From Flavobacteriales bacterium (GTDB lineage Bacteria; Bacteroidota; Bacteroidia; UBA10329), in NCBI GenBank assembly GCA_021741155.1, contig JAIOYP010000007.1, positions 1 through 64,000 of the forward strand: 64,000 nucleotides of DNA, in the 5' to 3' direction. Below, in pieces: positions 27,754 through 37,919 of this stretch. A model generated the notes under the pieces. That model was not told where the DNA came from and did not search any database. It saw only the letters and a program-made list of their open reading frames with translations. Numbering within the stretch: the stretch's first letter is position 1; the number at the start of each line of letters is the position of its first letter. The translations under genes were made by a program, and so were the position numbers.

Positions 27754-27761
27754 TATCTTTG
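27754..27761 (+). promoter_or_regulatory. -7 element TATCTTTG of lysS
   Basis: An exact match to TAnnTTTG, 15 nt before the lysS ATG. It contains the TTG that would otherwise be taken as an upstream start, so it decides the start codon. Confidence 0.75.
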
Positions 27762-27776
27762 CGCAAAATTTTAGGC

Positions 27777-29489
27777 ATGCAAGAACTCAGCGAACAGGAA
27801 GTTGTCAGAAGAGAGGCGCTTCAGAAACTTATAGACCTTGGAATTGACCCGTATCCTGCGGCATTATTCCCAGTGAATATTCTGGCTAAGGATGTGAAGG
27901 AACAATTTACGGAAGGCAAGGAGATGAAGGATGTGGTTCTTGCTGGGCGAATGATGAGTTCTCGCGTGATGGGAAAAGCATCGTTTGCTGAGCTGCAAGA
28001 TGCAAGCGGACGAATTCAGATCTATATCGCCAGAGATGAGATTTGTCCGGGTGAGGATAAGACCTTGTACAACGAGGTTTTTAAAAAGCTGTTGGATCGT
28101 GGCGATTTTATCGGAATCAAAGGCTACGTTTTTAAAACGCAGGTGGGAGAAACGTCTATTCACGTTCAAGAATTGACCTTGCTTAGCAAATCGTTAAAGC
28201 CGCTACCGGTGGTAAAAACCGATGCAGAAGGTGTGGTGCATGATGCCGTGAGCGATGCGGAATTCCGTTACCGTCAGCGGTACGTGGACCTGGTTGTGAA
28301 CCCTGGAACAAAAGAGGTTTTTAAGAAGCGGACGAAGCTTTACAGCGTGTTCAGAGATTACTTCAACGAGCACGAAATTTTAGAGGTGGAAACCCCAATT
28401 CTACAGGCTATTCCTGGAGGAGCAGCTGCGCGCCCGTTTATGACGCATCATAATGCGTTGGATATTCCGCTTTACATGCGCGTTGCGAACGAATTGTACC
28501 TAAAACGTTTGATTGTTGGGGGTTTTGATGGGGTGTATGAGTTTGCCAAAGACTTCAGAAATGAAGGCATGGACCGCACGCACAATCCAGAGTTTACGGT
28601 GATGGAAATCTATGTGGCTTACAAGGATTACAACTGGATGATGGATTTTACCGAGAAGCTCTTGGAAAAAGCCTGCATCGCCCTAAACGGAACGACTGAA
28701 ATTGAATACGGACAGCACAAGGTGAGCTTCAAAGCGCCATTTCCGCGTGTGCCGATGTTGGATGCCATTAAGGAACATACAGGTGTAGATATTACCGGAA
28801 TGGGCGTTGATGAACTGCGCAAAGTTTGCAAGGACCTTGGCGTTCCTACGGAGGATAGCATGGGAAAAGGCAAGCTGATTGATGAGCTTTTTGGCGAGAA
28901 GTGCGAAGGCAATTACATCCAGCCAACTTTTATTACAGACTATCCGGTGGAGATGTCTCCCCTTACCAAAAAGCACCGAAGCAAGGAAGGTTTGGTAGAG
29001 CGTTTTGAGTTGATGATTTGCGGAAAGGAGATTGCCAACGCTTATTCTGAGCTGAACGACCCGCTAGAACAACGCGAGCGTTTTGAAGAGCAAATGCAAC
29101 TGGCCGATAATGGGGATGACGAGGCAATGATGATCGATCAAGACTTCCTACGTGCCTTAGAATACGGCATGCCGCCAACCTCAGGAATGGGAATTGGAAT
29201 GGACCGTTTGGCGATGATGCTTACCAATCAACATTCTATTCAAGATATTCTCTTCTTCCCACAAATGCGACCAGAAAAGAAGGCGGAGAAAAAGGTGGAA
29301 TTGAACGAAACGGAGAAGCTCATTTTCGGCATCCTATCCAAGAACTCACCAATGGATTTGAACGACCTAAAGGAACGTTCTGGCCTCAGCGGCAAGCAAT
29401 GGGATAAGGGAATTAAGGGCTTGGCATCTCACGGATTGACCAAGGTGACGAAGACGGATGCGGGTTTGATGGTGGAAGCAAACAACTAA
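27777..29489 (+). CDS. lysS: lysyl-tRNA synthetase, class II, with C-terminal extension
   Basis: A 570-residue enzyme charging tRNA-Lys. The N-terminal OB-fold (about 55-150), class II motif 2 (FRNEGMDRTHNPEFT) and motif 3 (GMGIGMDRLAM) are intact. Beyond motif 3 there is an extra ~60-residue C-terminal domain (LIFGILSKNSPMDLNDL ... SHGLTKVTKTDAGLMVEANN) that looks like a winged helix and is absent from the E. coli-type enzyme. The last ~100 bp of this gene (29397-29496) have diverged copies at four more places up to 35.8 kb. The MBOAT gene starts 14 nt after the stop. Confidence 0.97.
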   Translation: MQELSEQEVVRREALQKLIDLGIDPYPAALFPVNILAKDVKEQFTEGKEMKDVVLAGRMMSSRVMGKASFAELQDASGRIQIYIARDEICPGEDKTLYNEVFKKLLDRGDFIGIKGYVFKTQVGETSIHVQELTLLSKSLKPLPVVKTDAEGVVHDAVSDAEFRYRQRYVDLVVNPGTKEVFKKRTKLYSVFRDYFNEHEILEVETPILQAIPGGAAARPFMTHHNALDIPLYMRVANELYLKRLIVGGFDGVYEFAKDFRNEGMDRTHNPEFTVMEIYVAYKDYNWMMDFTEKLLEKACIALNGTTEIEYGQHKVSFKAPFPRVPMLDAIKEHTGVDITGMGVDELRKVCKDLGVPTEDSMGKGKLIDELFGEKCEGNYIQPTFITDYPVEMSPLTKKHRSKEGLVERFELMICGKEIANAYSELNDPLEQRERFEEQMQLADNGDDEAMMIDQDFLRALEYGMPPTSGMGIGMDRLAMMLTNQHSIQDILFFPQMRPEKKAEKKVELNETEKLIFGILSKNSPMDLNDLKERSGLSGKQWDKGIKGLASHGLTKVTKTDAGLMVEANN

Positions 29490-29496
29490 CTCAACC
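29397..29496 (+). repeat. lysS 3'-end repeat, resident copy (A)
   Basis: From CAATGGGATAAGG to CTCAACC, covering the last 30 codons of lysS, the stop and 7 nt beyond. This is the parental sequence of the four copies at 31929, 32116, 34350 and 35659. Confidence 0.8.
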
Positions 29497-29503
29497 CATG
29501 TAG

Positions 29504-30913
29504 ATGCTATTCAATTCCATAGAGTTTGCGCTTTTTTTGCCCACTGTCCTGTTGTTGTACTGGGTAATTCCCAGTCGAAGTAACAATTTCAGAAATGTCC
29601 TTTTACTTGGCGCCAGCTATCTGTTTTACGGTTGGTGGGACTGGCGATTTCTTGGTCTTATTGCCTTCAGCTCTTTTGTTGATTTTATTATTGGACAACG
29701 ATTGAGTTTGACCAGCAACACAAGAAGTCGTAAGCTGTTTTTGACAATTAGTGTTGTGGTCAATCTGGGTCTTCTGGGTTTCTTCAAGTATTTCAATTTT
29801 TTCCTTGAGAGTTTAAAGGACGCATTCACCTTATTTGGTAAAGAGTTGAACTCTGAGCACCTAGCAATAGTGCTACCGGTCGGCATCAGCTTTTATACGT
29901 TCCAAACGCTCAGTTACACGATTGATGTGTACAAACGCAAAATTGTTGCGGAGAACGATATTATCAAATTTTTCACTTTCGTAAGTTTCTTTCCTCAACT
30001 TGTGGCAGGTCCGATCGAGCGAGCCTCGCACCTTTTGCCTCAGTTCCAAGCCGGGAAAACATTCTCATATCAGTTCATTTCCGAAGGATTTAAGCAAATT
30101 GTTTGGGGCTTCTTTTTGAAATTGGTAATTGCAGATAGGGCTGCCATTTATGTTGACTCTGTGTACAATAATGTATATCAACACGAGGGACTGACCTTCA
30201 TTTTCGCAACAGTATTATTTGCATTTCAAATTTACGGAGACTTTGCTGGATATTCGCTCATAGCAATTGGAACAGCTAAAATGTTCGGATTCGACCTAAT
30301 GACCAATTTCAGTCGTCCGTATCTCTCTTTTTCTGTAAAAGAATTCTGGACACGGTGGCATATTTCTCTTTCAACGTGGTTTAGAGACTACTTGTACATT
30401 CCATTAGGCGGGAATAGAGTTCCTCGGCCCAGAATGCTTCTGAATCTATTTGTAACATTCGTAATAAGCGGATTATGGCATGGTGCCAATTGGACCTTTG
30501 TAATTTGGGGAGCATTGAACGGAGCTTATCTGGTTTTAGAGATTTTGTTGGGTATTAAGGCCAGCCGAAACCCCTTTAGGATTCTTTTAACCTTCGGGTT
30601 AATTAATTTTTCATGGATATTCTTTAGGGCAGCAAATCTGCAAGAAGCAGGTCACATCGTCAGTACCATCTTCACTCATCCAGGAAGTCTCTTTTTTTCT
30701 TCCGAAAGCGATGTAACAGCGCCAATATACGCTATTCTTTCAATCGGCCTGCTCTTGTTGATTGAATTAAAAAGGGAGTTTTTGGGAAACCGTTTTTCAA
30801 TTACAAATCACCGCAATCAATGGGTGAGGATGGCGGCCTTTGCGTGCATCATCTTCCTCATTCTCTATCTGGGTGTTTTTGACAAAGGACAATTCATTTA
30901 CTTTCAGTTTTAA
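29504..30913 (+). CDS. MBOAT family O-acyltransferase (AlgI-like)
   Basis: A 469-residue polytopic membrane protein. Signature stretches are PSRSNNFRNVLLLGASYLFYGWWDWRFL near the start, LPVGISFYTFQTLSYTIDVY, FFPQLVAGPIERA, FWTRWHISLSTWFRDYLYIPLGG (about 282-304) and SGLWHGANWTFV with the catalytic His (about 328). AlgI/PatA proteins pass acyl groups across the membrane to a polysaccharide or peptidoglycan acceptor. The next gene encodes an SGNH-type partner, as in alginate acetylation systems. It starts 14 nt after lysS. Confidence 0.94.
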   Translation: MLFNSIEFALFLPTVLLLYWVIPSRSNNFRNVLLLGASYLFYGWWDWRFLGLIAFSSFVDFIIGQRLSLTSNTRSRKLFLTISVVVNLGLLGFFKYFNFFLESLKDAFTLFGKELNSEHLAIVLPVGISFYTFQTLSYTIDVYKRKIVAENDIIKFFTFVSFFPQLVAGPIERASHLLPQFQAGKTFSYQFISEGFKQIVWGFFLKLVIADRAAIYVDSVYNNVYQHEGLTFIFATVLFAFQIYGDFAGYSLIAIGTAKMFGFDLMTNFSRPYLSFSVKEFWTRWHISLSTWFRDYLYIPLGGNRVPRPRMLLNLFVTFVISGLWHGANWTFVIWGALNGAYLVLEILLGIKASRNPFRILLTFGLINFSWIFFRAANLQEAGHIVSTIFTHPGSLFFSSESDVTAPIYAILSIGLLLLIELKREFLGNRFSITNHRNQWVRMAAFACIIFLILYLGVFDKGQFIYFQF

Positions 30914-30916
30914 CCA

Positions 30917-31882
30917 ATGAAAAATTCAGAATTGAACTTGCTTGGGCTGAATGCTTTGAAGTTTATTGCTGTGTTATTGGTGGTAGACTTCGGTTTGGGA
31001 ACCATTGCAGAAAGGCTCTACTTTTCTCAAACAACTGGCAAGCAAGCAAGAATCATCGCTTCCTTAAATTTCAACGACTCTGAACTGTTAGTCTTGGGCA
31101 GCTCGCATGCAAATCGTCATTACGTGCCCGAGGTTTTTGAGAACCTCCTTGGTTTTAAAAGCTATAACGCTGGTGTTCAGGGACAAAGACTTCTTTTTAC
31201 CTCCACCTTGCAAAAGATGATATTGGATCGGTCTAAACCAAAAATTATCATCGTAAATATTGACAATAATTGGATGCAAGAGTCTCAAGAAGCATACGAT
31301 AGACTTTCAGATTTTCATCCTTTTTATTGGGAGTACCGCAAAATACTGTTACCGGTGCTAAATCTTAAGTCCACTTTTGTTGACCTGCGAATGAGCAGTA
31401 AAGCCTATAGAATGAACTCAACACTGGTTCACATGGCATTTTATTTTGTGAAACCTCAAGAAGCGCACAACGGATATCTTCCATCGTACAAAAAAATGGC
31501 TCTATCTACAGAGGTAGACAGTGATGGGCTGTCTTCTAATACTGAAAAGCCTGCTATAGACACCAATTTTGTGACTGCTTTCGATGAAATTATTGAAACT
31601 TCTTCTTTTAACGAAGTGAAATTGGTTTTTGTGGTTTCCCCAACATTCCATGTGCCTGACAAAACCGAGTCTGAATCGATGCAAATAATGGTGGATCGAA
31701 TTAAGGAAAAGAACCTTCCTTTTTACGACTTCAGAGGCGATTCTGCGTTTATGGGCAAGCCAAACCTGTTTTTTGACCCAGCCCACCTAAACCACGAAGG
31801 TGCTGTCCTGTTTAGTGGGTTGGTTGCCGCTGAATTAGAACATCTTGGCCTTTCTGCGAAAGCTCAAGCAGGCGCAGAATAA
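30917..31882 (+). CDS. SGNH/AlgX-like partner of the MBOAT acyltransferase
   Basis: A 321-residue protein with an N-terminal anchor helix (about 12-30). It contains VLGSSHANRHYVPE (about 57-70), with the Ser of an SGNH block, and FFDPAHLNHEGAVLF (about 284-298) with an Asp-x-x-His pair. Such proteins act outside the membrane as the acetyl-transfer partner of MBOAT proteins. It follows the MBOAT gene by 3 nt. Its stop codon falls in a stretch (31877-31925) that matches the 3' end of the hydrolase gene at 36.9 kb, so the extreme C-terminus may have been reshaped by recombination. Confidence 0.85.
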   Translation: MKNSELNLLGLNALKFIAVLLVVDFGLGTIAERLYFSQTTGKQARIIASLNFNDSELLVLGSSHANRHYVPEVFENLLGFKSYNAGVQGQRLLFTSTLQKMILDRSKPKIIIVNIDNNWMQESQEAYDRLSDFHPFYWEYRKILLPVLNLKSTFVDLRMSSKAYRMNSTLVHMAFYFVKPQEAHNGYLPSYKKMALSTEVDSDGLSSNTEKPAIDTNFVTAFDEIIETSSFNEVKLVFVVSPTFHVPDKTESESMQIMVDRIKEKNLPFYDFRGDSAFMGKPNLFFDPAHLNHEGAVLFSGLVAAELEHLGLSAKAQAGAE

Positions 31883-31925
31883 ACCCATTCGGCTCATCCA
31901 TAAAAACCTGTTGGTCGTTTCACAA
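31877..31925. pseudogene. 3'-end fragment of the lipoprotein hydrolase gene
   Basis: These 49 nt align without gaps to 36908-36956, inside the 3' end of the hydrolase gene at 36888-37919, with about nine mismatches and in the same orientation. Read on the minus strand the fragment gives NDQQVFMDEPNGFI against DDQEVFMEGVIGFI in the intact gene. The homology stops abruptly on the right. Confidence 0.7.
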
Positions 31926-31928
31926 TTA

Positions 31929-32003
31929 GACAAAGGCATTACTCACGAATCGGCCAAGGAGACGAAGACGGATGCTGGGTTGACGGTGGAGGCGGTAGGC
32001 TGA
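31929..32003 (+). repeat. lysS 3'-end copy B1
   Basis: Reads in frame as DKGITHESAKETKTDAGLTVEAVG-stop, against DKGIKGLASHGLTKVTKTDAGLMVEANN in lysS: an in-frame internal shortening with a preserved stop. The bases after the stop (TTGGTATT) resemble those after copy C (AGGTATT). Confidence 0.75.
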
Positions 32004-32009
32004 TTGGTA

Positions 32010-32047
32010 TTATACAAATCACCCAATCGATTCCCTGATTTGTATAA
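32010..32047. promoter_or_regulatory. orphan copy of the DUF4143 operator
   Basis: TTATACAAAT-N18-ATTTGTATAA, the same arms and the same 18-nt spacing as the operator in front of the intact DUF4143 gene at 34447-34488. Here it is followed only by a gene remnant. Confidence 0.8.
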
Positions 32048-32070
32048 AACAAGGAATACTCCACAGAAAC

Positions 32071-32246
32071 CGGCTTTGAAGTGCTGAACTGGAAGACGTT
32101 TCTTACGCGGTAAACCAATAGGATAAGGGCATCAAGAACTAGTCTCTCACGGATTGACCAAAGTGACCAAGACAGATGCTGGGTTGATGGTGGAGACGGT
32201 TTAATAGTAACTCAACCACTGCTCGGCTATCTAATTTCCAACCTTG
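32071..32246. repeat. 176-bp direct repeat, left copy (DUF4143 3' end + lysS tail B2 + lipoprotein 3' end)
   Basis: Matches 35614-35789 with a constant offset of 3543 bp, no gaps and only about three mismatches. It contains the last 43 nt of the DUF4143 gene (including its TAA), lysS-tail copy B2 (32116-32217) and 20 nt of the 3' end of the lipoprotein gene. The rest of the DUF4143 gene is missing, so this is a deletion relic. From 32247 to 32435 there is only AT-rich spacer with the next promoter. Confidence 0.9.
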
Positions 32247-32370
32247 ACGGATATATCATATCTGATTCGTTTTTTGGAAGCTCGTCAAACCAAAAACCTC
32301 ATTCATCCAGTTAAATAGCCTTTTTTGGCTAATTTCCTGTTGACCAAGATGCGCGAATGTGACACATTGA

Positions 32371-32378
32371 TATATTTG
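32371..32378 (+). promoter_or_regulatory. -7 element TATATTTG of the SpoIIE-type gene
   Basis: Exact TAnnTTTG match, 57 nt before the ATG; no clear -33 at the ideal distance. Confidence 0.5.
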
Positions 32379-32435
32379 CATTGCTGTGCAGGTTTGTAAG
32401 CGTTTCTCTTTTTTACTTCTACCATCCAAACCATC

Positions 32436-34331
32436 ATGTCAAAGAAACCCTTACTCCCTAAGTCTAAAGCAGGAAGAATCCTGCTTCTCATTTACGCCCT
32501 ACTGGGTTTGGTATTGGCTACCATGATTACAATTACGTTGGTTTGGTCGGCTAGTGTGATAACGAAATACGAGAACAATTCAGATACCATAGACAAGAGC
32601 TTCCTGACTATTGGTGAGCTCAAAAAAAGCATTTCGCATCGCGAAGTTGCCCTCTTACGACACCTCTGTGCAACCGATAGCCTATCGAAGATTGCAGAAG
32701 AAAACATAATAAATGCAGAACGTGCGGAGAACACAAAACGGCTCGATTATCTCCGATCATTACTCTCCGATTCTTTGGGCTACGCCCTTTATGACACGTT
32801 AGAAATGTATCGTGCAGAAAACATGTTGGCACGCGAAAAGCTACTTGCAATTAGCTGGGCACATGATGCCGAAAAAGCCATCCATTATCATAATGAAATT
32901 CAGCAAAAGACATATGAAAACCTGCAAAATTCCGTTTCATCATTGTCTGATCATATAGTGCGGGACAGAAAAGCAAAAGCCACTGCATTACAGTCTAATG
33001 CCTTTGCGCTTAGCTATACGGTTGTTGCGCTGGCTCTTGTAGTTATAGCGTTGTTAATTGCGTTGGGGTTTGCCATCAAATTCACAAACATGCACGCAGA
33101 CCGCATGGTTCATCGCAGTGATCTTTACCGCAAGGCCATCAATCAATCTATGATTGTAACGGTAACCGATTCTAAAGGAAGAATTACGGATTCTAACGAA
33201 CAGATGCTCAAACTCATGGGTTATTCGAAAGAGGAAGTCGTTGGCAAAAACCCAAGGATGTTTAAATCAGGTCATCATGACAAAGAATTCTACAAAAACC
33301 TTTGGACTACGGTTTTGGCGGGAAATGTTTGGAAGGGAGAAATGCTTAACCGCGTAAAAAACGGTGGCATTGTTTGGTTAGACACTACCATTATTCCGTT
33401 TAGGGATGAGATGGGTAAGATTGAAGAGATGTTTGTGCTTAGACAAGACATCTCGGCCAGAAAAATGGCTGAGGATGAGCTCATTCTTACAAACCGCGAC
33501 TTGGAAAAACGGGTGGAAGAACGCACAGCAGACCTTTTGATAACCAGTCAGAAATTGGATGCTATTCATCAAGACCTTGTTTCGAGCGTGAACTACGCCA
33601 AGCGTATTCAAGATGCCGTGTTAGATTCGTCTTTAGAAGTTACGGAGGTGTTCCCCAATTCTTTTGTGTTCGCTAAGAGCCATTCGGTATTAAGCGGAGA
33701 TTTTGTGTGGTGCGCAACGATTGGAGATTTGCAGATTATTGCAGCGGTAGATTGCACGGGGCATGGCATACCAGGGGCGTTGATGTCTGTGTTGGGAAAG
33801 GAGATTTTAGACCTCGTTATTTTAGAATCAGAACTAGCTAGTGCTGGAGAGATGCTTTTGGAGATGGACGAACAACTCATCAACCGGCTACAAATAAAAT
33901 CTAGAGACCTTATCATTAACGATGGTATGGACGTGGCGCTATGCATCGTAGATCAAAAAAATGGCACCTTCCAGTATGCTGGCGCTTATCGGCCTTTAAT
34001 TACGGTAGACAATGCGGGCATCTCTACCTACTACAAAGGATCTTCGTTTTCAATCGGTGGCGGTTCATCTAGACACGATAAAACATTCGAAACCATCACC
34101 ATTCCTATTACCCCAGACCTGATGTTCTACATTGGTTCAGATGGTTTTCAGGATCAATTTGGCGGGACTGAGGATAAAAAATTCGGAAAAGCACGGCTCA
34201 CCGCACTCTTATCGTCCATCTCTTCACTCCCAATAAAGCAACAACAGGCAGGGGCTAAAGAAGCGTTTATCAATTGGCAGGGCAAAGCAACCCAAACCGA
34301 TGATGTGTTGCTGGTTGGTATAAGGCTTTAG
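32436..34331 (+). CDS. membrane sensor with PAS and SpoIIE-type PP2C phosphatase domains
   Basis: A 631-residue protein. Helix 1 (about 12-35) and helix 2 (about 188-213) bracket a ~150-residue extracytoplasmic helical sensor region. A PAS domain with its PAC segment follows (about 224-340, TDSNEQMLKLMGYSKEEVVGKNPRMFK), then a coiled coil (DLEKRVEERTADL), then a SpoIIE/PP2C-like domain (about 400-630, SGDFVWCATIGDLQIIAAVDCTGHGIPGALMS, with metal-binding Asp residues). Such proteins dephosphorylate anti-sigma-factor antagonists or act in two-component-like circuits. No anti-sigma gene is adjacent. It lies between lysS-tail copies B2 and C. Confidence 0.92.
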   Translation: MSKKPLLPKSKAGRILLLIYALLGLVLATMITITLVWSASVITKYENNSDTIDKSFLTIGELKKSISHREVALLRHLCATDSLSKIAEENIINAERAENTKRLDYLRSLLSDSLGYALYDTLEMYRAENMLAREKLLAISWAHDAEKAIHYHNEIQQKTYENLQNSVSSLSDHIVRDRKAKATALQSNAFALSYTVVALALVVIALLIALGFAIKFTNMHADRMVHRSDLYRKAINQSMIVTVTDSKGRITDSNEQMLKLMGYSKEEVVGKNPRMFKSGHHDKEFYKNLWTTVLAGNVWKGEMLNRVKNGGIVWLDTTIIPFRDEMGKIEEMFVLRQDISARKMAEDELILTNRDLEKRVEERTADLLITSQKLDAIHQDLVSSVNYAKRIQDAVLDSSLEVTEVFPNSFVFAKSHSVLSGDFVWCATIGDLQIIAAVDCTGHGIPGALMSVLGKEILDLVILESELASAGEMLLEMDEQLINRLQIKSRDLIINDGMDVALCIVDQKNGTFQYAGAYRPLITVDNAGISTYYKGSSFSIGGGSSRHDKTFETITIPITPDLMFYIGSDGFQDQFGGTEDKKFGKARLTALLSSISSLPIKQQQAGAKEAFINWQGKATQTDDVLLVGIRL

Positions 34332-34349
34332 TTTACGCGGTCAGTACCC

Positions 34350-34396
34350 AGATGACGAAGACGGATGCGGGGTTGTCGGTTAAAACAGTGGGCTGA
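34350..34396 (+). repeat. lysS 3'-end copy C
   Basis: Reads MTKTDAGLSVKTVG-stop against VTKTDAGLMVEANN in lysS, 18 nt after the SpoIIE-type stop. It is preceded by TTTACGCGGT, which resembles the end of the DUF4143 gene (TCTTACGCGGT). Confidence 0.65.
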
Positions 34397-34446
34397 TAGG
34401 TATTCCCTCCTCGCATCTGGTTCAGATTATTTCGAATTTCAGCTAG

Positions 34447-34488
34447 TTTTATACAAATCATACACTCAACCGCTATATTTGTATAAAA
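34447..34488 (+). promoter_or_regulatory. operator/promoter of the second DUF4143 gene
   Basis: Inverted repeat TTTTATACAAAT (34447-34458) and ATTTGTATAAAA (34477-34488), 18 nt apart. The right arm overlaps the -7 element TATATTTG (34474-34481), 18 nt before the ATG, as expected for a repressor site. Confidence 0.75.
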
Positions 34489-34498
34489 TTTAGTTGGC

Positions 34499-35656
34499 AT
34501 GAACCACATAGCACGGGAAATAAGAACGGTTCTTCTTGACTACGCGCAACAGTTTCGGGCAGTTATGGTAGTCGGCCCAAGGCAGTCTGGAAAGACCACG
34601 CTGGTCAAGATTACATTCCCTAAAAAACCGTACGTCTCGTTAGAAAATCCCGATGAACGTGCGCTAGCAAATGAAGATCCACGGGCGTTTCTGGCACGAT
34701 TCCCCAAAGGGGCTATTCTTGATGAGGTTCAACGTGTTCCAAGCCTATTGAACTATTTGCAAGAGATTCTGGACCATAGCAAAGAGGATGGATTGTACAT
34801 TATTACTGGCAGCAACAATATTCTGCTTCAGGATAACGTGAGCCAAACCTTGGCAGGGCGTGTGGGCGTGCTTGATCTGATGCCGCTCAGTTACCGCGAA
34901 ATAGTACAGCAAAAGAGCAATCTTACTTTGGAAGAACACATTTTCAACGGCAGCTACCCAGAGATTTATGATCGAAACCGAAGCCCAAGCATCTGGTATC
35001 CCTCCTACATCCGAACGTATGTGGAGCGCGATGTTCGTCAGGTGCAGAACATTGAGAATACCGCGCTGTTCACCAAGTTTCTTCGCCTTTGTGCGGGTCG
35101 GGTCGGTCAGCAAGTAAATATGTCTGCTCTAAGCAACGAATGCGGTATTGATGTGAGAACTGTGCAGTCTTGGCTCTCTGTATTGGAAAGTACCTACGTG
35201 ATAAAACGACTGTCTCCGTTCCATCGCAACTTTAATAAGCGAATTACCAAGTCGCCAAAACTCTATTTTATTGATTCTGGACTGGTCTGCTCACTGCTTG
35301 GAATAAGAACAACCGATGAGCTCACGGTCTCCCACTTTAAGGGTGCGTTGGTTGAGAATTTCATCATCATGGAATTGGTGAAGAATGGTTTGAATAAAGG
35401 ATTGCACCAATCGCTTTATTATTGGCGAGAGAACAACGGTGTGGAGGTGGATGTGATTCTTGATTCGGGTACAACCTTCGTCCCTATCGAAATAAAATCG
35501 GCACAGACCTTTTCGAAGGATTTCCTCACTAACCTCAAAAAGTTTAAATCCTATTCCGATGTTCTGAAAGGAACTCTGCTTTATGATGGCGAAATGGAAT
35601 TCAAAACAGAAGACGGCTTCGAAGTGCTGAACTGGAAGACGTTTCTTACGCGGTAA
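34499..35656 (+). CDS. ATP-binding protein with DUF4143 (second copy)
   Basis: A 385-residue AAA_14/DUF4143 protein, related to but clearly diverged from the one at 13.3 kb. Walker A is GPRQSGKTT (26-34), Walker B is GAILDEVQRV, and a winged-helix-like segment (NMSALSNECGIDVRTVQSWLSVLEST) follows. The C-terminus has YYWRENNGVEVDVILD...VPIEIKS, with the E-x-D...E-x-K pattern of PD-(D/E)xK nucleases. The gene is bracketed by lysS-tail copies C and D and preceded by its own palindromic operator. A gutted copy lies at 32.0-32.2 kb. Confidence 0.92.
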   Translation: MNHIAREIRTVLLDYAQQFRAVMVVGPRQSGKTTLVKITFPKKPYVSLENPDERALANEDPRAFLARFPKGAILDEVQRVPSLLNYLQEILDHSKEDGLYIITGSNNILLQDNVSQTLAGRVGVLDLMPLSYREIVQQKSNLTLEEHIFNGSYPEIYDRNRSPSIWYPSYIRTYVERDVRQVQNIENTALFTKFLRLCAGRVGQQVNMSALSNECGIDVRTVQSWLSVLESTYVIKRLSPFHRNFNKRITKSPKLYFIDSGLVCSLLGIRTTDELTVSHFKGALVENFIIMELVKNGLNKGLHQSLYYWRENNGVEVDVILDSGTTFVPIEIKSAQTFSKDFLTNLKKFKSYSDVLKGTLLYDGEMEFKTEDGFEVLNWKTFLTR

Positions 35657-35789
35657 ACCAATAGGATAAGGGCATCAAGAACTAGTCTCTCACGGATTGA
35701 CCAAAGTGACCAAGACAGATGCTGGGTTGATGGTGGAGAAAGTTTAATAGTAACTCAACCACTGCTCGGCTATCTAATTTCCAACCTTG
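35614..35789. repeat. 176-bp direct repeat, right copy (contains lysS tail D)
   Basis: Partner of 32071-32246. It spans the last 43 nt of the intact DUF4143 gene, lysS-tail copy D (35659-35760, reading LTKVTKTDAGLMVEKV-stop in frame) and the final 20 nt of the convergent lipoprotein gene. Confidence 0.9.
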
Positions 35790-36678
35790 CCACCACTCGC
35801 TCCCAATACCTTGGGGCATAGACGAACACATCGTCAGAGGTGTAGGAAAGACCATCACTACCAGCATACACCTGTATCAGATTATCGGGGGTAAAACTAA
35901 TGGTTGAGAACATTTCAATGGTTTCTCCTCCGTTTGGCATGGTCACAATGATGGGTGAATAGCGGTGGCTTCGGATGAATGGACGATTGCAAATCGGCCC
36001 GGCAAAAGGGCACCCTGAAACATCAGGAAGCCCCTGTGGGTTATGGATGTAGGTCGAATCCGTTCCACCAAACACAATTCCTGATGGCCTCAGGTTCTCT
36101 GGATACAACATGTCTAAGAGACGAATCTCGTTGCACTTTAGCAAGAGCCTGTTTGTTCCTGCATCGTATGTCACGGCATCGCTCGCCAGATTCTGTAAGA
36201 ACACGTTCTGGTATCCTATGGGCAATTCCACTTCCTGATAGTAATAGTATGGCATGAACATGAAGTAGTTCATGGTCACTTCATCCTGCTCGTAAACACC
36301 ATCTCGCAGGTCGTTGCCGTATAAGATGGGCTCGGCCGTTACCTCCTGATTGTTCGAAAAATCGACATCCAGATAAATCTGGTAATTAGGGTCGTTGTCG
36401 TGTCCATCGATGTAGGAGATCATGTGCGTGGACGAATTGGACCCCGCACTCTCGAGGTTGTCCTGATAGGCCAAAATGTTGAGTTTGGATTTGAACATGT
36501 AGGGTGTGAGGGTGGTGACTAAGGGTCCGAACTGGGTGTAGACCGAATCCTCAGAGGTTTTGCCCGAACCTTCGTCAATGGTCGCATTGGTGAATTTGAG
36601 ACGGTGCTGGATAATCCCCGATTTCTTGCAAGAGCTGAGCCCTAAAAGAATAAATAGAAAAATGCCGAAGTATTTCAT
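35770..36678 (-). CDS. lipoprotein, unknown function
   Basis: A 302-residue protein. The start at 36678 gives a lipoprotein signal (MKYFGIFLFILLGLSSCKKS, lipobox LSSC). The body is Tyr/Asn/Asp-rich with predicted beta strands (YIDGHDNDPNYQIYLDVDFSN, FMPYYYYQEVELPIGYQN) and no motif I recognise. It is likely periplasmic or surface-exposed. Its last 20 nt are within the right copy of the 176-bp repeat and are duplicated at 32227-32246. Confidence 0.75.
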   Translation of the reverse strand: MKYFGIFLFILLGLSSCKKSGIIQHRLKFTNATIDEGSGKTSEDSVYTQFGPLVTTLTPYMFKSKLNILAYQDNLESAGSNSSTHMISYIDGHDNDPNYQIYLDVDFSNNQEVTAEPILYGNDLRDGVYEQDEVTMNYFMFMPYYYYQEVELPIGYQNVFLQNLASDAVTYDAGTNRLLLKCNEIRLLDMLYPENLRPSGIVFGGTDSTYIHNPQGLPDVSGCPFAGPICNRPFIRSHRYSPIIVTMPNGGETIEMFSTISFTPDNLIQVYAGSDGLSYTSDDVFVYAPRYWERVVARLEIR

Positions 36679-36887
36679 GGGTAAGGTTAGTTGACAAAAC
36701 AAACTTCAACATACTCATCTTCAACATCACTGAGCTTGATCAGAGAAAAAGCTGTTCCTTACCAAGCGAATCTTGTACGCGTCACTCCCTGTTTATAATG
36801 ATCTATTGAATGTCGCCACTCAATTAGAGTGGCAAACGGTTCGAAAAGAGTTGGGTCAGCGGTGACTGAGACGCAAGCATTGCGTCT
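36679..36887. repeat. intergenic region with GAGACGCAA palindrome
   Basis: Mostly featureless. A perfect hairpin GAGACGCAA-GCA-TTGCGTCTC (36868-36888) ends at the hydrolase stop. The GAGACGCAA...TTGCGTCTC type recurs between genes in Bacteroidota genomes. No T-run follows, so a REP-like element is more likely than a terminator. Confidence 0.6.
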
Positions 36888-37919
36888 CTACCGTTCAAAC
36901 GTTCGATGAATAAACCCAATCACCCCTTCCATAAAAACCTCTTGGTCGTCCCACAAGGCCATGTGGCTGCCGTTGGGGCAATGCAATGATTCTCCATTCT
37001 GAACGAGGGTAGCCATCTCCTTCATTTCATCCGGATTCATGCTATCGTATTTCGCACCTACCATGAGGGTTGGTGTGGCAATTTCGTGTAGTCTATCCCA
37101 CACGCTCCAATCCTTTAGAATACCACCTGGCACAAACTCGCTTGGCCCTTGCATGTAGCTGTAAACGGGCCCGTTAAAGTGGCTAAAGCTTCGTGCCACT
37201 GGTTCTGGGAAAGGGTAAATTTTGCAGATGTGTTTGGCGTAGAATTCCTTCTCCACCAACTCCAAATAAATCGGATTTCCGTAGTCTTCGGCATCTTCAT
37301 ACATCTTTAGCGTGTCCACCAAACTTGGCCGTAATTGCTCTCTCAATTTGTTGTTGTAAGCCGCGTATTTATGAAAATCGGCTGTCATGTTGCAGATGAT
37401 TAAGCCTTTCAAATTCTGCTGATACTTGAGCGCGTATTCCAGCGCTAGAATGCCTCCCCAGCTTTGTCCGAGAAGCACGAAATTGTCCTTATTCAACCCC
37501 AAAGCAACACGCACTTGCTCCACCTCTTCTACAAAACGCTCAATGGTGTAAAGGCTCATGTCTTCGGGCTGATCGGAGTAATACGAACCCAACTGATCGT
37601 ACTCATAAAACTCAATATTCGCCTGCGGAAAAAAGCTCTGGAAGCTCTCTAAATACTCGTGCGTTCCTGCTGGACCGCCATGCAGTATCAGCACCTTCAT
37701 AGGGCTGTTTCCGTAGCGCTTTGTCCAAACCTTGTAGCCTTCTACAAGGTCAATCATTTGCACGCCTCCGGCTTGATAAGTGCCAGGGGTTTTGAAATTG
37801 TTGTAGTCGCAGTTTGTGACTGGTTCCGCTGTTTCGACCGGTGCTTGCGAGCATCCGAAAAACGTGAAAAGGAGAAAAAGAAAAACGGTTGGCCGTAGGA
37901 TGGCAGAAGTGTAATGCAT
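36888..37919 (-). CDS. lipoprotein alpha/beta hydrolase, proline-iminopeptidase family
   Basis: A 343-residue protein with a lipoprotein signal (FLLFTFFGCSQAPVE; Cys about 23). The hydrolase fold shows ILHGGPAGTHEYL (the HGGPG-type motif of this family), YDQLGSYYSDQP, the nucleophile GQSWGGILALEYA, an Asp in VGAKYDSMNP and a His in CPNGSHMALWDD. Prolyl iminopeptidases remove N-terminal proline. A lipid-anchored form would act in the periplasm or at the surface. A diverged 49-nt fragment of its 3' end lies at 31877-31925. Confidence 0.9.
   Translation of the reverse strand: MHYTSAILRPTVFLFLLFTFFGCSQAPVETAEPVTNCDYNNFKTPGTYQAGGVQMIDLVEGYKVWTKRYGNSPMKVLILHGGPAGTHEYLESFQSFFPQANIEFYEYDQLGSYYSDQPEDMSLYTIERFVEEVEQVRVALGLNKDNFVLLGQSWGGILALEYALKYQQNLKGLIICNMTADFHKYAAYNNKLREQLRPSLVDTLKMYEDAEDYGNPIYLELVEKEFYAKHICKIYPFPEPVARSFSHFNGPVYSYMQGPSEFVPGGILKDWSVWDRLHEIATPTLMVGAKYDSMNPDEMKEMATLVQNGESLHCPNGSHMALWDDQEVFMEGVIGFIHRTFER

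Follow-up and report, generated by a model that had tools for sequence, protein, structure and literature searches.

Minimal mobile elements of Neisseria are strain-specific genes situated between the same two conserved genes and carrying no mobility genes; their flanks are normally exchanged cleanly, and displaced gene tails are not one of their defining features. Insertion with long target duplication is recognized by a cassette, often a restriction-modification system, which is absent from a relative and is bordered by long direct repeats of the target, variable in length (Nobusato et al. 2000, as described in PMC1643837 and PMC3031569). Single-crossover integration of a re-circularised linear fragment in E. 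coli produced duplications of the lacZ end of 109-950 bp (PMC3240628). The typical products of homology-facilitated illegitimate recombination have deletions and 3-10 bp of microhomology (PMC3240628).

The window, that is, the whole stretch of DNA analysed (64,000 nucleotides; contig JAIOYP010000007.1 of assembly GCA_021741155.1, Flavobacteriales bacterium, here genome G000), contains a 370-bp gap at 31877-32246 composed of the 3′ ends of neighbouring genes. We consider it probable that this gap is a scar field in a hotspot of insertion, bounded by lysS and a hydrolase gene convergent with it, where fragments of related DNA recombined in repeatedly and deletions followed. All of the evidence comes from metagenome-assembled genomes, used as assemblies without reads.

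The mosaic gap and its surroundings

The features between 27759 and 37919 are as follows.

27759-29489, + strand: lysS, intact (Pfam tRNA-synt_2, E 3e-90), with the duplicated target at its 3′ end (29394-29489)
29504-31882, + strand: cassette 1, an MBOAT O-acyltransferase (29504-30913; Pfam MBOAT, E 6e-26) and a paired downstream protein (30917-31882; no Pfam match)
31877-31925, - strand: copy of the hydrolase 3′ end, displaced, 84% identical to 36908-36956
31935-32003, + strand: lysS tail copy B1, TGA stop at 32001-32003
32007-32049, no strand: palindrome, a copy of the one upstream of the DUF4143 gene, arms TTATACAAATCA / ATTTGTATAAAA
32063-32113, + strand: last 51 nt of a DUF4143 gene, 94% to 35606-35656
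32113-32204, + strand: lysS tail copy B2, TAA stop at 32202-32204, decay mutations in common with C2
32227-32246, - strand: last 20 nt of the lipoprotein gene, 100% to 35770-35789
32436-34331, + strand: cassette 2, PAS-SpoIIE phosphatase (Pfam PAS, E 2e-15; SpoIIE, E 2e-12)
34354-34396, + strand: lysS tail copy C1, TGA stop at 34394-34396, 82% to B1 and 90% over 30 nt to lysS
34446-34488, no strand: palindrome, with the DUF4143 start codon 10 bp downstream
34499-35656, + strand: cassette 3, AAA_14/DUF4143 ATPase (Pfam DUF4143, E 2e-52; PADLOC PDC-S01, E 8e-105), a candidate defence family in PADLOC
35656-35747, + strand: lysS tail copy C2, TAA stop at 35745-35747
35770-36702, - strand: lipoprotein gene, convergent with lysS (G003 counterpart 64% identity over 308 aa)
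36888-37919, - strand: alpha/beta hydrolase gene, right flank of the hotspot (Pfam Abhydrolase_1, E 9e-20)

The gap was compared with its surroundings by repeat search, by local alignment with shuffled controls and by a whole-genome search. An earlier note on this DNA had listed six pieces here, and all six were recovered at nearly the same coordinates. The hydrolase piece is a 49-nt ungapped match (31877-31925 to 36908-36956; 41/49, E 2e-8, blastn) with an alignment score of 58, the maximum in 200 dinucleotide shuffles being 31. Both lysS tails that the note had named are 83% identical to the native lysS end (B1, 31935-31993 to 29423-29479, E 4e-10; B2, 32113-32194 to 29394-29476, E 1e-17). 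What it had called the DUF4143 operator is the palindrome at 32007-32049, matching 34446-34488 over 43 nt, and the DUF4143 tail is also present, at a length of 51 rather than 43 nt. The 20-nt lipoprotein tail would be weak by itself; it counts as the end of a block, 32063-32246, which matches 35606-35789 over 184 bp (97.3% identical, E 2e-85) and contains the DUF4143 tail, B2 and the lipoprotein tail. Scores of the gap pieces ranged from 57 to 343 against shuffle maxima of 28-31, and neither the hydrolase nor the lipoprotein fragment was at chance level. The alignments bear out the note's view that the pieces are scars of neighbouring genes, which it placed intact 4-5 kb away, and in the whole-genome search the gap had matches only within the 29-37 kb neighbourhood. 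From the end of the mosaic to the SpoIIE gene there are 189 bp (32247-32435) that matched nothing in the sequences compared here, and no Rfam families were found in 29400-37000.

The two palindromes have identical 12-nt arms and a diverged spacer, which suggests selection on the arms. The idea that they belong to a genome-wide repeat was rejected, as there are only two perfect instances in the genome. Across Bacteroidia, a strong inverted repeat is found within 160 nt upstream of 11 of 24 AAA_14/DUF4143 genes, compared with 1 of 60 control genes (Fisher P 1e-6); these repeats often lie 20 nt or less from the start codon and differ in sequence each time (examples are 34446-34488 in the window, L222, L223, L226, L227, L233, L247 and others). 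They look like paralogue-specific autoregulation, possibly as putative operators each recognized by its own paralogue.

According to the earlier note the gap and the 34.3-37 kb region were once copies of one segment. On this reading a segment (lysS tail, palindrome, DUF4143, lysS tail, lipoprotein, hydrolase) would have undergone one ancient tandem duplication, and part of its left copy would later have been deleted. The 97% identity of the right-hand 184 bp, its decay mutations in common with 35606-35789, and a piece order that partly follows 34354-35789 are what such a duplication would give, and the claim fits this block only. The left half is not equally recent: B1 is only 82% identical to C1 and the palindrome spacers differ; the gap as a whole is not one copy of the 34.3-37 kb segment. 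The hydrolase tail, moreover, lies to the left of B1, yet the intact hydrolase gene is rightmost, and a single duplication leaves unexplained both the presence of lysS tails before and after cassettes and the ten other loci described below. We regard it as unlikely.

Sister genomes and the history of the lysS tails

Seven of the eight sister genomes have a lysS orthologue, complete or in pieces. In G001 and G005, from the same genus, lysS and the hydrolase gene are convergent and adjacent, 14-20 bp apart. Between them G003 has the lipoprotein gene alone (the same gene as 35770-36702 in the window), G004 a Por-sorted beta-propeller protein, and G007 a truncated lipoprotein gene plus two genes; G008 has two genes, one of 385 aa and one for a Kinase-PolyVal protein, and between these two its own displaced hydrolase tail (36 nt, 83%). 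There are six different states in seven genomes, that is, variable genes between conserved flanks, as in minimal mobile elements. A junction that is empty in some sisters and holds differing cargo in others marks lysS and the hydrolase gene as the borders of an insertion hotspot. The earlier note had proposed looking for intermediate states in sister loci; empty sites and varied cargo were seen there.

Cassette 1 is missing from this site in all sisters; its downstream protein (30917-31882), considered as a clue to the donor, has no close relative in the eight, and the search turned up no donor in which this cassette follows this gene. Distant hydrolase homologues (L065-L067) had no lysS match nearby and were left out of the comparison. 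The arrangement C2-lipoprotein-hydrolase, as in G003, is probably the older one, and the MBOAT gene and its partner, SpoIIE and DUF4143 are probably later arrivals in this lineage.

In all there are four displaced lysS tails (B1, B2, C1 and C2) and one displaced hydrolase tail, C1 and C2 flanking the intact DUF4143 gene. The displaced lysS tails represent different alleles. B2 and C2 depart from the native gene at six codons of the conserved core, upstream of the variable end, and every one of these changes is synonymous; B1 has residues in common with G008, G001 and G003, and its VG-stop ending is like that of G003 and G005. Divergence among the tails is about that between the genes of sister species. 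Since its differences from native lysS are mostly synonymous, C2 is probably the original lysS tail of this lineage. B1, C1 and the hydrolase tail also bear non-synonymous changes, from which it follows that some decay occurred in place. B2 and C2 have one TAG and one frameshift within the lysS tail in common, which indicates that the 184-bp block was copied after decay had begun; it was copied from, or together with, 35606-35789, through a local duplication or else as an import whose source was a close relative.

Displaced gene ends elsewhere in the genome

G000 (1.22 Mb, 968 genes) was compared with itself, using matches of at least 40 nt. Copies of gene 3′ ends lie downstream on the same strand for 12 genes and upstream for one, with no inverted case in the 1.22 Mb. 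The 12 are lysS, the hydrolase gene and ten genes outside the window, whose tails are always on the same strand and downstream, past a cassette of 0.6-5 kb. In the same comparison there are three copies of 5′ ends, all upstream. These form a mirror image of the displaced tails, a 5′-end copy upstream on the same strand (contigs C7, 8398-10609; C8, 9502-11337; C13, 17639-19470). An automated match on C15 was dropped as an in-gene tandem repeat, and C22 contains a very long ORF of diverged internal repeats at the contig end (115690-132882). In G008 (556 kb) a 3′ end is copied downstream in five cases, including some local repeats; G004 (235 kb) and the unrelated complete genome G047 (400 kb) have none, and the contrast between G000 and G047 is nominal only (Fisher P 0.04).

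The tails vary in length from 44 to 171 nt and the target genes are unrelated, including a helicase, a PepX-like peptidase and what would be, from its sequence, an ABC-F-like protein. Among the cargo are a PIN protein and its small partner, a second MBOAT/SGNH pair, an SLFN_AlbA_2 protein, a PAS-SpoIIE protein and DUF4143 with a Por-sorted protein. A further locus has NTP_transf_2 cargo (PADLOC PDC-S09), where the 43-nt repeat merely overlaps the gene end. The second MBOAT/SGNH pair (C10, 9524-13122, L146) is diverged, related to cassette 1 and likewise located in a tail-flanked insertion, and the pair may therefore be recurrent cargo. In G008 the order is gatC, cytosine methylase (MTase), Eco47II-like endonuclease (REase), gatC tail; this MTase/REase pair is one cassette of the restriction-modification kind, and most others are not. 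Empty sites are seen in relatives: in G004 and G002 the helicase gene adjoins a phosphodiesterase gene, and gatC is followed by a ytxJ-like gene, the MTase and REase being inserted only in G008.

Mismatches between intact and displaced tails were counted at 11 loci, with lysS and the hydrolase gene left out. A decaying duplicate would scatter its changes over codon positions. The counts at positions 1, 2 and 3 are 11, 10 and 68, with third positions accounting for 68 of the 89 (P 1e-16 against uniform decay; P 1e-4 against a duplication-then-decay mixture with an assumed 57% third positions). This excess implies that each tail had evolved within a working gene, in a lineage of its own, before they met. 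Whole-gene tandem duplication of core genes, with the extra copy decaying to a tail, would also yield same-strand copies nearby, but it is scarcely credible given that only 3′ tails remain downstream (12 of the 13 same-strand cases) with cargo in between, that the mismatches are mostly synonymous, unlike those of a decaying copy, and that the sisters retain single full-length copies.

An integrase supplied in trans might instead insert elements site-specifically into gene 3′ ends, each bringing a replacement tail, in the manner of islands in the ends of tRNA and housekeeping genes. An intact gene with an imported tail, the original tail at the far end and synonymous differences between the two would fit such a process. 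It is disfavoured by the cargo ORFs examined, none of which has a match to a recombinase family in Pfam, and by the want of a fixed core: the lysS tails begin at differing points (-95, about -60 and -50 relative to the stop codon), and no word longer than 5 nt is shared by all five. The targets, furthermore, are unrelated and the cassettes as small as 0.6 kb, and we judge the integrase model very unlikely.

Proposed cassette import and the known systems

The reading that we prefer is repeated recombination at gene ends. Foreign cassettes of one to three genes would have been pasted behind lysS time after time, each displacing the older tail, which would explain why the gap is made of the tail ends of neighbours. 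The donor fragment would comprise the 3′ part of a core gene and the gene or genes after it in the donor, and would recombine homologously into the recipient's copy of that core gene. The latter would stay complete, now a hybrid that ends in the donor's tail, with the cassette behind it and the older tail pushed beyond the cassette, giving a long and variable target duplication. Several such rounds at lysS would have left the displaced lysS and hydrolase tails. Later deletions would have removed most of one DUF4143 cassette, of which the body is missing between the palindrome at 32007-32049 and the tail at 32063, and the gap's lipoprotein copy would have lost all but 20 nt.

The basis of this proposal was observed directly, namely the tail identities, the sister states including empty sites, the ten further genes and the coding-type divergence; we infer the import route and the order of events. 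The fragment may have entered by a single crossover of an end-joined circle or, during DNA uptake, by homology on one side and an illegitimate join on the other. At the junctions viewed no microhomology was obvious by eye. ComEC is encoded in eight of the nine genomes, which makes DNA uptake plausible and proves nothing; natural transformation is only suggested as the route.

The arrival of a cassette without an integrase can be recognized inexpensively from a displaced gene tail, which reveals the target, the side of insertion and, through synonymous divergence, evidence that one tail originated in another lineage. Here such tails point to defence candidates (DUF4143/PDC-S01, a PDC-S09-like nucleotidyltransferase and SLFN_AlbA_2) and, in a sister, to a restriction-modification pair; if tail scars were surveyed systematically, the movement of small defence cassettes without a visible mobile element might be traced. 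We raise only tentatively, as rather unlikely, the broader notion of an unrecognised cassette economy in the genus: genes for defence, toxin-antitoxin-like functions and the cell surface would pass from species to species with core-gene 3′ ends as homology anchors, and stacked tails would record the arrivals.

A literature search for a described class of 3′-tail-flanked cassettes, the key 2010 survey being outside its coverage, returned only the restriction-modification work on target duplication. The loci resemble Neisseria minimal mobile elements in having variable genes between conserved flanks (lysS and the hydrolase gene) and no mobility genes, and differ from them in the displaced gene tails. 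They would share with homology-facilitated illegitimate recombination one homologous and one illegitimate end and the gain of foreign DNA beside a homologous anchor, but the outcome here is duplication and not deletion coupled with insertion. Single-crossover integration of a circle predicts an intact hybrid gene, an insert and a truncated gene-end duplicate of variable length (PMC3240628); that case concerned a laboratory plasmid in E. coli, whereas here the exchange would be between species. The nearest named pattern is insertion with long target duplication, whose anatomy recurs here in cassettes flanked by long same-strand target repeats (44-171 nt) and in empty sites in relatives (lysS in G001 and G005; helicase and gatC in G004 and G002); one cassette, at gatC in G008, is an MTase/REase pair. 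What sets the present case apart is that the repeats are two diverged alleles and not copies of one resident target, that they are gene 3′ tails, that the cargo is broad and that events are stacked at lysS. We take the phenomenon to be a known process in variant form, one that is exceptionally frequent and stacked in this genome.
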